In this document: piece by piece, positions 6,210-13,800 of the stretch | Numbering within the stretch: the first letter of the stretch is position 1 | Layout of the letters: each line of letters opens with the position of its first letter | Assembly (NCBI RefSeq): GCF_026210795.1 | Contig: NC_089431.1 | Coordinates: forward strand, 2,232,001 to 2,296,000 | Reading direction: 5' to 3' | DNA: 64,000 nucleotides | Origin: Rhizophagus irregularis | Taxonomy: Eukaryota > Glomeromycota > Glomeromycetes > Glomerales > Glomeraceae | Notes under the pieces: model-generated | Seen by the model: only the letters and a program-made list of their open reading frames with translations | What the model was told of the DNA's origin: nothing | Databases searched by the model: none | Translations under genes and position numbers: made by a program

Positions 6210-7823
6210 TTATGTATCTAAACATTCCCGAATATAATCTTTTGGAATGTGAGAATCGACTAAGGTTAAAAACGCTTTTAGAGTACATAAAGATTTATCT
6301 TTAGGGTGATGTTTATCATCATTTTGACAGGCAGGCAATTCTAAAATTTTATCGTTATATCTTACACGAACATAATGATTATCTTGAGCAGAAGAAAATT
6401 CTTCCTTGGATTCAAATAATTCTAATATAAGATGTGAATTGAATTTTGGCCATCTATGATCAAATGCATTGAATGTTGCTATTAAAGGAGCTAATGTTGA
6501 ATCATGTCCACTGTATATTGCAAATTTTAAATCTTCTGCTTCGGGTATATTGTTTACTTTTGAGAGAATAATATCACGTAAATCAGCAATGAATGGACCT
6601 ATTGCTAATCTTCTCATTTCTAATGTTTCATAAAATCTTTTTATATAAACTAGATATTAGTGCACAGTACTTGCCGGAATTGAGAAATTATTCTTGCCAA
6701 CTTACCCATTAAACCATTCACCAGTGGATATTTCATCGATTTTATCTATAACTTCTTCAGTGAATTCTTTCGGAATAGGAATTTTATTTGCTTTTGCTAG
6801 AAAATTAAAAGGTTGTAATAATAAAAAACTCTAGAGAATTGACGTCCAATATTCTACTTACCTGCAGTTACAGTATCAAATATTTCGTTTAAAGAAGGCT
6901 TAGAATCAAGCTTAACTTCGTTTACAATAGGTTTTAATTGAGTAGTTAAATATTTTAAATCGGATTCATAACGTAATTTTGAAGCCTCCCCAAATTGCTT
7001 AATCAGTGTCATTAAGCGCTTACATTTACTATTTTGATGTAAAGTTTCTTTATAAAAGGCTCTATTTATATAAGAATGTTAGATATTAATATTTTATTAC
7101 TAAGATCATATATTAATATATTAATAAATAAATACCTAGTATGAATTTTTAAAACGTACGAATTGGATCTGTATTGGGATGGATATAATCCGCCAATAAC
7201 TAGCTGCTGCAATGATTCGAATGTTCTTGCATAGTTGGTTGAACGTAAATAAAGTAATTTATCGTTTGATAATTTTTCATCCAAAAATTTTAATTTGTCT
7301 ACATATAATGTTCGAAAGTGAGCACCTAACTCAGTCATTGACCTACGCCCAATATCTGTTAACTACTCGAGCCAAAATTTTATTTAAAAATTTTAAATCT
7401 TAAATACTATTTATATACTCATATTATATATTCTATATTTTTATTATTATTTATTATTACCTGTCCAAACGCGCATGTTCCGGGAGAGGGAAAAGAATGA
7501 GAGTCAATACGTCTATAAGTAAATTGCTCGTACCCTAATTTTAAATTATCTTGATTATTTTTGTCCTCTTGAAATAATAAAATACTCGATTGAAATTCTT
7601 TTGCTTCGTGACATAAATTCCACAATGGGGGTATAACATGTTCTAGGAATGGTTTAACTGGCGTACGTTCACCTAAGTAATAATAAATAAAATAAAAATA
7701 AAATTTTTTACATAAATGTCACTTTTTAATTATACCGTGTCTATGAATCACTTGAACCAATTTCAATTGTAAATGATCTGGATAATAAAATCGGATTTTC
7801 TCATCGTCGTATGACGGAGGCAT
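6210..7823 (-). CDS. Histidine-type (branch 2) acid phosphatase-like protein
   Basis: Member of the histidine phosphatase superfamily, related to lysosomal/prostatic acid phosphatases and 2-phosphoxylose phosphatase. It hydrolyses a phosphomonoester; the substrate cannot be read from sequence. Exons 7823-7736, 7672-7461, 7362-7136, 7061-6862, 6790-6706 and 6612-6210 give 404 residues. The catalytic RHGERTPV motif is at about residues 25-32 and is split by the first intron. The proton donor is the HD of IYSGHDSTLAPLI. YLRSTNYARTFESLQQLVIGGLYP is the family motif between them, broken here after twenty residues only by naming. The start MPPSYDDEKIRF shows no signal peptide, so unlike secreted acid phosphatases this product is probably intracellular. 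The acceptor of the last exon is the least certain boundary. The gene is divergent from SPO11 with a gap of about 260 bp. Confidence 0.85.
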
Positions 7824-8083
7824 TGTTACAATAAAAATTTTTTTTTGATTGCCTTATATAATTTAAATAATAACAATTGAATTTTTTTTCTATTGTCATG
7901 TTTTAAAATGTAATTTACTATCACATAATAATTTAGCTTTTTTTTTAGTGATACATAATTTTCAGGAGTTAAAAAAAGCATCGCAGGTCGTTTTTTATTT
8001 AGGTTTAAAACAAATAATTTTTAATAAATTTCATTGGCGATACTGAGTCGATTACAAATTGTTCACGTTATCATTCTTTCAAC

Positions 8084-10153
8084 ATGGAAATTACAAAAGA
8101 ACGACGTGTAAACAAAGTAAATAATACGTTCAATGATTTCTTGGAAACTACGTACAGACCAAGGCAAATATAAAAATATAAATTAATTTATTTTAAATTA
8201 TGGTCTTTTTACTTAAAAACCGACTTTATAATCTAGAACATGGGTAATTCAAAAAATTGAATCGATGATTGAAAGATTATTGTTTGATATTGCAAAGAAA
8301 CGTCCACCAGTAATTAATTCGGTATCGAATATCAAACGAAAAGAGAATCATTCCAGGTAGTCTAAATATTTGTGCGAAAAAATAATTTCTTCAGCTAAAA
8401 ATTTTCATGATATACCGTAGATATGACGCACAAAATGGCATTATACGAAGAAAAAACAATAATCTTTCTAATAAACAAATACAGTTTTTATCAACAAAAA
8501 ATCCCAAAACATTTGTTATTATGATTCGTATTCTTGATATTTGCCATGAACTTTTAATTCAAAATGTAACTGCTACTAAACGTGACATTTATTATAAAGA
8601 TGTCAAATTATTTGGTAACTCACAAACTGTTGATCTGGTAAGATCAAACAATGCTTAAATTTACAAATCGAAAAAAATTTACATATCTTTTCACTTAGGT
8701 AATAGATGAATTGGCATGTTTTTTTCAAATACCAAGATCCTGTTTAAATGTGGTAAGCAACTTGTAATTTGTTACGTATATGATAATTTATGTGAATTAA
8801 AATTTTTCTATTCATAAGATTGCTTCCGCCAAAGGATTAGTCGCTGGTTCATTAAAAATAATTCAAAAAGATAGGTCTATATTAGATTGCTCAAAAACGA
8901 GTTGTCAGGTAATTCAGTAAAATTACTTTATTTAATTTAACGAAAATTTTTTTTTACGTGTTCTCTTTTTTATAAGGGAACGCTTATACCAACTATGGAT
9001 CTAATTGATAATATCCTTTAAGTGTCATAACATTTTATTAATTAAAATAAAAAATTTCCCTTAATAATTCAAACGAATTGAGACCAATGCTGAATTCGTC
9101 TTGGTCATAGAAAAAGAAGTATAACATACTTTTGTTTATTATACTCATTTTTTTTTCTTTCGATTTTATTCAAAATTTATATCATTTTTAATATAATTAG
9201 GCAACATTTCAATACATTTTATCGAGCAAAATGCACGAGCAATTTGGACCTTGCATCTTAATTACAGTGTGTAAAATTGATCATATGTATATCATTTATT
9301 TTTATTTTTCAAATTAAATTAATCTTGTATTTTTTTATTAAAGGGAAAAGGGTATCCGGTTTGTATCATTTTATGAGTTTGATATATTAAGCATTGTAAC
9401 AATTTTTATCGCAGTAAATTAGGATATAGCCACTCGTCAATTAGTTAAAAATTTAAGTGATTTACGTCGACCAGATGAAACGTATCCATTTCTACAAATA
9501 TTAGGATTCTTTGACAATGATCCATACGGTGAATGACATTCATTTTGATTTTGTGAATTTCTGTTTTTTTTTCTTAAAATTAAAAATGAATTTCGTTTTT
9601 TCGTTATTAGGAATAGAAATTCTTTGCGTTTATAAATTCGGATCATTGGTAATATAAAAATCGGATCTTCTGTAAATTATTAAATGGAAAATAATTCACA
9701 TATAATATACATAATGTAGACCATGTCATTTGACAATGAAAATTTGGCAACGCCTGGTATAAAATGGCTCGGGTTACACTGTTCAGACTGGAAAAAGTAA
9801 AGTACAAAGTTCTTGTCAAACTGGTCAGTTGTAACTATATTGCTAAAACTCTATATATAGGTATAGGATTTCAAAGAGTTCTTTAATAAGGATATCTTCC
9901 GCCGACAGAAAAAAAGCATATCATTTGTTACAACGCAATTATCTTCAAGCCGAATGGAAGTAAGCTATTATCGTTATGTTCATTACGAGATTTACCATTG
10001 TTTAATTACTAAAGTTAATATTGTTTTTTTAGAAAAGAAATTTGCCTAATATTGTATATGGGATATAAAGCTGAAATACAAAGTTTGGACGATTGTGAAA
10101 ATGTGAATTTACTAAATTACCTAATATCCAAAATAAGTCGTAGCCGTTTTTAA
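8084..10153 (+). CDS. SPO11: SPO11, meiotic double-strand-break protein (topoisomerase VI A-like)
   Basis: Spo11 starts meiotic recombination by cutting DNA through a tyrosine ester. Exons as read: 8084-8163, 8237-8356, 8421-8637, 8699-8752, 8819-8908, 8977-9010, 9075-9118, 9201-9266, 9344-9358, 9423-9528, 9611-9648, 9720-9796, 9867-9959 and 10033-10153, giving 384 residues, near the usual ~400. The catalytic tyrosine region TKRDIYYKDVKLFGN is intact. The Toprim metal-binding residues are in FVLVIEKEATF (Glu) and FFDNDPYGIEI (Asp-x-Asp). The C-terminus YKAEIQSL matches the family. Intron 1 uses a GC donor (AAG|GCAAAT). Intron 6 (9011-9074) is an AT-AC intron with U12 signals. Exon 9 is only 15 nt (GKGYP). 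No frame break was found, so the gene looks functional. Exon 1 is the least certain part: it was chosen because only it gives an ATG and the correct phase into exon 2. Confidence 0.9.
9011..9074 (+). other. U12-type AT-AC intron in SPO11
   Basis: The intron begins ATATCCTTT, the exact consensus of U12-type 5' splice sites. It carries TCCCTTAAT at 9057-9065, one mismatch from the U12 branch-site consensus, 10-11 bases before the end. It ends in AC (caaac). Splicing here joins A|GA (Arg) and restores LIDRIETNAEFVLVIEKE, the conserved Toprim strand. No GT-AG alternative keeps the frame: the exon otherwise runs into TAA at 9019. Confidence 0.88.
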
Positions 10154-10886: not shown

Positions 10887-13800
10887 TCATTTACATACAT
10901 TGCGTCCATCAGGGATAGATATTTCTTCTATAGGATTTTTTACAGGAAATTTATTTATAGTGGCAATGAGATCGTTCATTCCTAATAACATTTTACATAA
11001 ATAAAAAATAAATTTACAGATCAATAAACTTTTACGTTAAATTAATAAAAATATAGATGATGACATACTTAATGGTTTCGTAACATATTCATCCATTCCT
11101 GCAAAAAGACATTTCTCTCGATCTCCTATCATTGCGTGAGCCGTTAAAGCAATTATAGGAACATGACCACCGGTTTCTTGTTCAAATTCTCGTATCTTTT
11201 GTGTGGCTTCAAATCCACCCATTATAGGCATTTGTACATCCATCAATATCTAATTAACAACCAGGGAACGTTAGTAATTTTTTTTTTTAATAACAAATAT
11301 CGATATTATATGTAAGACTCACAAGATCATATCGTTTAGCTTTAAAAGCCTCAACGGCCAATTGTCCATTTGATACTATTTCAACTCTATGGCCAAATTT
11401 CTCTAATATTTTAACCGCTAATTTTTGATTCACAATATTATCTTCGGCCATTAAAATATCTAATGGTTGTTGCCTTGCAAAATCACTTGGAACCGCAGCA
11501 TGAGACTCAAGTGCTGGCAATAAAGCATTCATTAAATCAGGTAAATTCGATGGCGTACTACTATATGATGTGATACCAAGATCAATACAATTTTTCATAT
11601 TTAAGTTAGGTATCTCTGGAGCTAAAAGAACTATGGGGATGTATCTTAAATGTGTAATCTCTCTTAATCTTTCAACAATGCTTAAATCATCAACAATTAC
11701 TGTGTCGAACAAGGGTGTATCTGATTTTCGAGAAGCTGTTATAAGTGCGGCCTCCTCTACAGAACAAGCAATTTTTGGTCTAAGGCTTAATTCTTCAATT
11801 ATACTGACAACACCCGTTTTATCATGCATTGTATCAATAAATAAGACATGCCGACCATGCCAAGGATTCATTTTTTGTTCTATTGTTTCTCGGCTCATTG
11901 TACCCAAAGTTACTTTAACTGTAAAGTAGAATTCAGATCCATGTCCGTATACGCTCTTTACCCATAAATCACCACCCATTAAAGACACAAGACGTTTTGA
12001 TATTGAAAGACCTAAACCAGTACCACCATATTTTCTTGTTGTTGAACCATCAGCCTGACAAAAAGTATCAAATATCATATCAATCTTGTCTTCCTGAATA
12101 CCTATACCAGTATCACTAACGCAAAATTCCAAAATTACTCGATCATCCTCGATTAATTGTGTGTGTACTGAAAGAACAACTTCACCTTCAGTGGTAAACT
12201 TGATGGCATTTCCGATCAGATTTGTTATTACTTGTCTTAAACGTAATGGATCACCGATAAGTTGATCAGGTATTCCATTATCTACATCATAAATTAAATC
12301 TAACTTCTTTTGATTTGCTTTAACCGCAAGTGTTTTAAGTACTCCAAATACGGCTGATCGTAGTGAAAAAGGAATTTGTTCAATAGTCATACGACCGGCT
12401 TCAACTATATTTAATGAATTTAAACATCAAATAAATTTTTAAGTTTCACTATTAAATAAAATAACGATAGATACAAATTGCTCGCTTAACTTACTTTTTG
12501 AGATGTCTAAAATATCATCGATAATTGTCAACAAAGAGTTGGCTAATGTACTTACAATCATCAGATTTTCGCGTTGCTGTCTTGTCAATTCGGTTTCTAG
12601 GGTTAACGTAGTCATTCCAATAATGCCATTCATAGGTGTACGAATCTGTATTCAAAAATTGATCAAATTACAAAATGTGCCTTGTTATTTAAAAAAAGTA
12701 AAAAAAGTAAAACAAATAATAAAATACCTCATGTGACATATTAGCTAGAAATTCACTTTTACTTCTATTAGCTAATTCTGCAGCTTCTCTTGCAGCTGTA
12801 TTCTTTTGAATACTTTCTCTTAAGTTATAAACCATTTGATTGATTTTTGTTTTAAGGGAATCCATTTCACCCGAAGCATCAACAGTAATATACTGTGTGA
12901 AATCGCCATCCGTTGCCGCAGCGGATATTTGAGCAAATGCACGGACCTGCGAAGTTAAGTTGGAAGCCATAGTATTGACGTTAGATGTAATTTCTTTCCA
13001 TGTACCTTTAACATCTTTTACTTGTGCTTGGACTCCAAGTTTTCCCTCTGTACCAACTTCACGAGCTACACGTGTTACTTCAGCAGCAAAGGTAGACAAC
13101 TAATACAGTTTTGTTATAATTTCGATATCAAAAAAAACATTTATATTCAATTTTTTTTTTTAGCTAATAAATTTAATCCATAAAGATAAACATATAATTA
13201 CCTGATCTACCATAGTATTTATAGTATTCTTCAAATCCAAGATTTCTCCTTTGACATTCACTGTAATTTTCTTGCTGAGATCACCACAAGCCACGCTCTT
13301 ACAGACATTTGCAATATCACGTACTTGTGCCGTAAGGTTAGACGCCATGGTGTTGACATTATCCGTTAATTCCTTCCATGTACCACCAACGTCTTTGACA
13401 TGCGCTTGGACTCCAAGTATACCTTCTGTACCTACTTCACGTGCTACACGTGTTACTTCTGCAGCAAACATACGAAGTTGGTCAACCATGGAATTTACTG
13501 TATCTTTTAATTCAAGTATTTCGCCTTTGACATCTACACTGATCTTTTTGCTCAAATCACCGCAAGCTACAGCGGTCGTGACCTCGGCTATAGACCGTAC
13601 TTGCGTGGTTAAATTAGCTGCCATAATATTTACATTATCCGTTAGTACTTTCCACGTGCCTTCCACATCTTTAACAACAGCTTGGCCTCCAAGTTTTCCT
13701 TCGGTTCCCACCTCTAAAGATACTCGTGTTACTTCCGTAGCGAAAGTTTGTAGTTGATCTACCATAGTATTTATTGTATTTTTAAGATCCCATATCTCTC

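Follow-up and report, generated by a model that had tools for sequence, protein, structure and literature searches.

The segment 9011-9074 of the analysed window, a stretch of 64,000 nt from Rhizophagus irregularis, is very probably a genuine intron of the U12 type with AT-AC ends; of the 13 introns in this fungus's SPO11 gene, it is the sixth. This reading is based on its splice signals, on the reading frame that its removal would restore and on the alignment of the spliced product with archaeal Topo VI-A.

The SPO11 gene and its sixth intron

A complete SPO11/Topo VI-A gene was modelled by hand at window positions 8084-10153 on the + strand, with exon limits chosen according to splice sites, frame and SPO11 likeness. 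The model comprises 14 coding exons and encodes 386 amino acids followed by a stop; its least certain parts are the start codon and exon 1. The coding exons are:

8084-8163, + strand: exon 1 (hand model; among the least certain parts)
8237-8356, + strand: exon 2 (hand model)
8421-8637, + strand: exon 3 (hand model)
8699-8752, + strand: exon 4 (hand model)
8819-8908, + strand: exon 5 (hand model)
8977-9010, + strand: exon 6, ending with ...LID and base 1 of the R199 codon
9075-9118, + strand: exon 7, with the remainder of the R199 codon and the Toprim strand IETNAEFVLVIEKE, which includes the Toprim Glu E211
9201-9266, + strand: exon 8 (hand model)
9344-9358, + strand: exon 9 (hand model)
9423-9528, + strand: exon 10 (hand model)
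9611-9648, + strand: exon 11 (hand model)
9720-9796, + strand: exon 12 (hand model)
9861-9959, + strand: exon 13 (hand model)
10033-10153, + strand: exon 14 (hand model)

The model protein was matched by the Pfam families TOP6A-Spo11_Toprim (2.9e-46) and TP6A_N (1.1e-20), and by the structures of archaeal Topo VI-A (PDB 2zbk, 3.6e-32) and yeast Spo11 (PDB 8urq, 4.3e-14), in agreement with the earlier note on this DNA, which had named the gene a fungal SPO11. The TP6A_N match is the only one genome-wide (32 contigs, 146,748,485 bases). By motif position, the catalytic Tyr is Y125, the Toprim Glu is E211 and the DxD pair is D271/D273. The spacing from Tyr to Glu is 86, equal to that given by the segment and residue numbers of human SPO11. 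By homology, the product would be expected to make meiotic double-strand breaks.

Twelve of the 13 introns have GT-AG (n = 11) or GC-AG (n = 1) ends, the latter being intron 1 (window 8164-8236, GCAAAT...TAG). Two neighbouring open frames lie beside SPO11, both on the - strand: one at window 6854-7853, which we take by eye to be histidine acid phosphatase-like from its RHG motif, and one at window 11037-12426, which by eye presumably resembles a hybrid histidine kinase / response regulator.

The features assigned to intron 6 are:

9011-9074, + strand: SPO11 intron 6, predicted AT-AC intron of the U12 type, 64 nt long, interrupting codon 199 in phase 1
9011-9019, + strand: putative U12-type 5' splice site ATATCCTTT, 8/8 after the first base
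9056-9065, + strand: putative U12-type branch site TTCCCTTAAT, whose second A (9064) is 10 nt from the end of the intron
9073-9074, + strand: 3' splice site AC, read from the sequence

The consensus for a U12-type branch site is TTCCTTRAY, and in minor introns the distance from the branch site to the 3' splice site is short, about 8-15 nt. The branch 9-mer of intron 6, TCCCTTAAT, matches this consensus at 8/9 positions with one mismatch, and its distance of 10 nt, counted from the second A, lies within that range and fits the 10-11 bases given in the earlier note; the intron ends in AC. The 5' site, at 9011, agrees with the AT-AC minor-intron consensus ATATCCTT at 8/8 positions after the first base, RTATCCTT being the published U12-type 5' site consensus (PMC2846911). 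Scored in the same way, the 12 other SPO11 introns reach 1-5 of 8 at the 5' site and at most 7/9 at the branch site. The phase of intron 6, phase 1, is in keeping with the phase order 1 > 2 > 0 given for R. irregularis minor introns in the main text of Larue & Roy 2023 (PMC10639083).

The splice 9010/9075 joins LID to RIETNAEFVLVIEKE, and the spliced protein aligns across the junction with archaeal Topo VI-A without a gap (PTMDLIDRIETNAEFVLVIEK versus PTPDLIDFIDVDAEFVLVVEK; PT.DLID.I...AEFVLV.EK), which is strong evidence for the exact intron bases. If the intron is retained, the frame reads LIDNIL and then a stop, that is, after residue 201; the loss of the Toprim strand and the ensuing stop had both been anticipated in the earlier note. 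Possible junctions were enumerated with the start of exon 6 and the end of exon 7 fixed, for introns of at least 30 nt, combining GT, GC or AT donors at 8978-9029 with AG or AC acceptors up to 9109. Eight junctions keep the frame (four AT-AG, three AT-AC and one GC-AC), and 9011-9074 is the sole junction among them to carry U12 marks at its 5' as well as its 3' end. A GT-AG or GC-AG alternative was rejected, as none within the enumerated range of donors and acceptors keeps the frame.

Removal of this AT-AC intron by the major (U2-type) spliceosome is highly improbable: the 5' sites of major AT-AC introns resemble those of the major class, whereas ATATCCTTT follows the U12 consensus in full and fits U11 over 9 bp, with a U12-type branch site 10 nt from the end of the intron. 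Such major AT-AC introns do occur in human genes, for example SYCP2 and TAF2 (PMC8280824). It is scarcely credible that the AT-AC splice stems from a sequencing error, or that the gene is a pseudogene in which this intron is not required. The assembly is nanopore-based and Illumina-polished (PMC10234402), but all 14 exons of the hand model are open and in frame, Tyr125, Glu211 and Asp271/Asp273 are all in place with a strong family match, and the two U12 motifs could not both arise from a single-base error.

For a U12-type intron 6, known minor-splicing biology would place U11 on ATATCCTTT and U12 on TCCCTTAAT, bound as a di-snRNP, after which U4atac/U6atac.U5 would join the complex and U6atac would take over the 5' site from U11. 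Excision would link the winged-helix half, which holds the catalytic Tyr, to the first Toprim strand; with the intron left in, the product would end after residue 201 and lack the Toprim domain. The gene, its frame, the motifs, the snRNA genes and further such introns in the genome have been shown in this analysis; the splicing of intron 6 itself and its efficiency are inferred.

Minor spliceosome and other candidate introns in the genome

The earlier note had held that the gene implies a working minor spliceosome, and had proposed a search for the four minor snRNAs; all of them were found in the genome by Rfam above their gathering scores, namely U12 (68.9 bits), U6atac (79.9 bits), two U11 loci (71.9 and 55.5 bits) and U4atac (55.0 bits versus a cut-off of 53). 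The predicted duplex of U4atac with U6atac is 18 bp long with one internal mismatch (-32.2 kcal/mol). Together with the other candidate AT-AC introns described below and the published account of this fungus (Larue & Roy 2023, PMC10639083), these genes support the proposed spliceosome. The two U11 copies are:

L003:1501-1641, - strand: U11 copy (Rfam)
L004:1501-1627, + strand: U11 copy (Rfam)

Both copies have a common 5' end, UAAAAGGGUGU, which pairs with all nine bases of ATATCCTTT, including the first three intron bases; human U11 differs in the part that faces these three bases. The 9-bp duplex of the U11 5' end with the intron 6 5' site (-9.1 kcal/mol) is convincing, as it is reached by 0.05% of 2000 shuffles. 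That of U6atac with the same site (-6.4 kcal/mol, reached by 4.5% of shuffles) is marginal. The duplex of U12 with the branch site (-5.3 kcal/mol) is not better than shuffles, of which 26.8% of 2000 reach it, and the branch-site pairing of intron 6 is therefore weak as computed; its mismatch places an intron C opposite an A of U12.

In profile searches for minor-spliceosome proteins, an exon for a U11-48K-type zinc finger was found, and one prokaryote control also matched; this zinc finger family occurs in other proteins too. PDCD7 scored 21.1 bits in the genome, below the 27-bit cut-off. The Pfam model of CENATAC had no match in the genome despite the presence of AT-AC minor introns, and it was likewise silent on the controls, so absence of the protein from the genome cannot be concluded. 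In human cells, CENATAC favours A-type minor introns (PMC8280824). Orthologues of ZMAT5, RNPC3, SNRNP35 and SNRNP25 in R. irregularis are given by Larue & Roy 2023 (PMC10639083).

The frequency of such introns was estimated with the pattern ATATCCTTN{22,52}YYCCTTRAYN{4,10}AC, which gave 44 rows in the 146.7-Mb genome versus 7 for the reversed-pattern control. The control rate corresponds to ~5e-5 per 2.07-kb gene strand, before a frame fit is demanded at both ends. On our count, 25 rows out of these 44 are copies from three repeat families: one with 11 rows at 11 places, one with 12 rows at 10 places and one with 2 rows. The remaining 19 rows, SPO11 among them, are single places. For this reason the equation of 44 rows with 44 introns was rejected; the raw enrichment of 44 versus 7, with the control left uncollapsed, overstates the number of real introns. 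The case for intron 6 is made by the frame, the alignment and both motifs, not by enrichment.

A second pattern, RTATCCTTN{22,52}TTCCTTRAY, gave 52 rows versus 17 for its control in the genome; SPO11 is absent from these rows because of its one branch-site mismatch. Within the window, RTATCCTT has 13 matches versus 6.9 expected, a count reached by 4 of 100 shuffles, and is weak evidence by itself. TTYCCTTRAY has a single match in the window, at intron 6, versus 2.7 expected.

From these patterns, 20 AT-AC loci were fetched (16 of the 18 single places besides SPO11, and four repeat copies), along with 6 GT- loci out of the 11 GT- rows of the second pattern. Eleven joined frames were chosen by eye from the 26 loci, for their length or likeness, and ten of them, all but L017, were scanned with Pfam (six AT-AC, selected among the 16 single places, and four GT-AG), which left 16 of the 26 loci unscanned. 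A Pfam domain spans the junction in four of the six AT-AC candidates scanned and in two of the four GT-AG candidates:

L015, AT-AC: PAXNEB/ELP4-type domain across the junction (Pfam)
L020, AT-AC: ubiquitin-conjugating domain across the junction (Pfam)
L025, AT-AC: TBC domain across the junction (Pfam)
L012, AT-AC: DHHC domain across the junction (Pfam)
L030, GT-AG: protein kinase domain across the junction (Pfam)
L028, GT-AG: HEAT repeat across the junction (Pfam)

These junction-spanning domains show further introns of the same class in conserved genes of this genome. The joined frames of the AT-AC loci L023 and L024 had no Pfam match; in the GT-AG locus L031 the domain stops one residue short of the junction, and in L032 (GT-AG) the Pfam matches are below the cut-off. 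Many of the fetched loci give only short joined frames, indicating that many pattern matches are not introns. The repeat family of 11 rows (L009, L027 and nine more) has what looks like a perfect AT-AC minor intron of 52-53 nt, ATATCCTTTATTTC...TTTCCTTAATAACTTATCAAC; it was rejected as an intron, as the copies L009 and L027 share no long joined frame.

Minor-intron marks in other meiosis genes

Two other meiosis genes, HOP2 and MND1, were inspected for minor-intron marks. HOP2 has a GT-AG intron of 70 nt in phase 1 (L034:1432-1501; C9 near 2942333) that starts with GTATCCTTCC, a full U12-type 5' site, and once it is spliced out the frame reads through without a break and resembles HOP2, NRPYSATDVSNNL... 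No U12-type branch site was found in this intron, the best match being 6/9 at 24-25 nt from the end; it is possibly a drifted minor intron or one converting to the major type. On the gene strand of the MND1 locus (3,099 bases), neither RTATCCTT nor YCCTTRAY occurs, and there are three looser RTATCYT matches. With respect to minor-intron marks, the meiosis genes thus comprise one clear case (SPO11), one ambiguous case (HOP2) and one empty case (MND1).

These results bear on a question that the earlier note had raised, whether meiotic gene output depends on minor splicing, and on the idea that the SPO11 intron (and that of HOP2) has been kept because its splicing controls this output. Such a role is a claim separate from, and compatible with, the U12-type identity of intron 6. 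Retention of intron 6 would cut the protein after residue 201, and the phase-1 HOP2 intron with its U12-type 5' site points in the same direction; against this stand the lack of a U12-type branch site in the HOP2 intron and the empty MND1 locus. According to the main text of Larue & Roy 2023, the minor-intron genes of R. irregularis show limited functional enrichment, and minor splicing is not raised in proliferating cells (PMC10639083). Given these published observations and the mixed picture across the three genes, we consider a regulatory role quite unlikely, and we regard intron 6 as an ordinary element that has been retained and plays no particular part in meiosis.

Relation to published minor introns

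The minor spliceosome of R. irregularis is already published, and most of what makes intron 6 significant is known: Larue & Roy 2023 predicted 205 minor introns and reported all four minor snRNAs, with minor-intron motifs resembling those of animals and plants (PMC10639083). The main text of that paper contains no occurrence of SPO11, and intron 6 may already be among the 205 introns. Among the papers listed in a literature search of main texts, none was found to name a SPO11 minor intron in a fungus. A Spo11 record from R. irregularis SL1 has been deposited under the number MH974800 (PMC6281316). SPO11 intron 6 is a new, or at least unnamed, example of a known intron class in R. irregularis.

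AT-AC minor introns with minor snRNAs have been described in Rhizopus and Phycomyces, which are early-diverging fungi like the one studied here, although their minor introns are far fewer than those of R. irregularis; we met no mention of SPO11 in this connection (Bartschat & Samuelsson 2010, PMC2846911). Human SPO11 has been shortlisted among the human genes containing U12-type introns (PMC7612377), a likeness at the level of the gene. Plant and animal SPO11 genes share six intron positions, 3, 5, 7, 8, 10 and 12 of Arabidopsis SPO11-1; from a table with two Dikarya, the authors suppose that fungi have lost positions 8 and 12 (Sprink & Hartung 2014, PMC4071758). In moss, retention of SPO11 intron 8 gives a product of 181 of 361 amino acids; U12 and AT-AC do not occur in the main text of that paper (PMC4071758). 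By rough spacing from known residue numbers, the length of the moss product is compatible with the R. irregularis site, and it could suit the intron 5 site as well.

A broader scenario would make intron 6 an ancient minor intron that is still present in human SPO11 and disappeared from Dikarya when these lost the minor spliceosome, with slowly spliced minor introns in at least two meiosis genes of R. irregularis, SPO11 and HOP2, limiting entry into a hidden meiotic programme; we regard this combination as very unlikely. If human SPO11 turns out to carry its minor intron at the position of intron 6, this would be a clear instance of a minor intron that was in place before fungi and animals diverged, has been retained since and was lost in Dikarya.

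For R. irregularis, a fungus of debated sexuality, recognition of intron 6 gives the right SPO11 gene model. A gene finder that allows GT-AG introns only would be expected to truncate SPO11 or to break its Toprim domain. Through this intron, a well-defined meiotic gene joins those known to have minor introns in Glomeromycotina.
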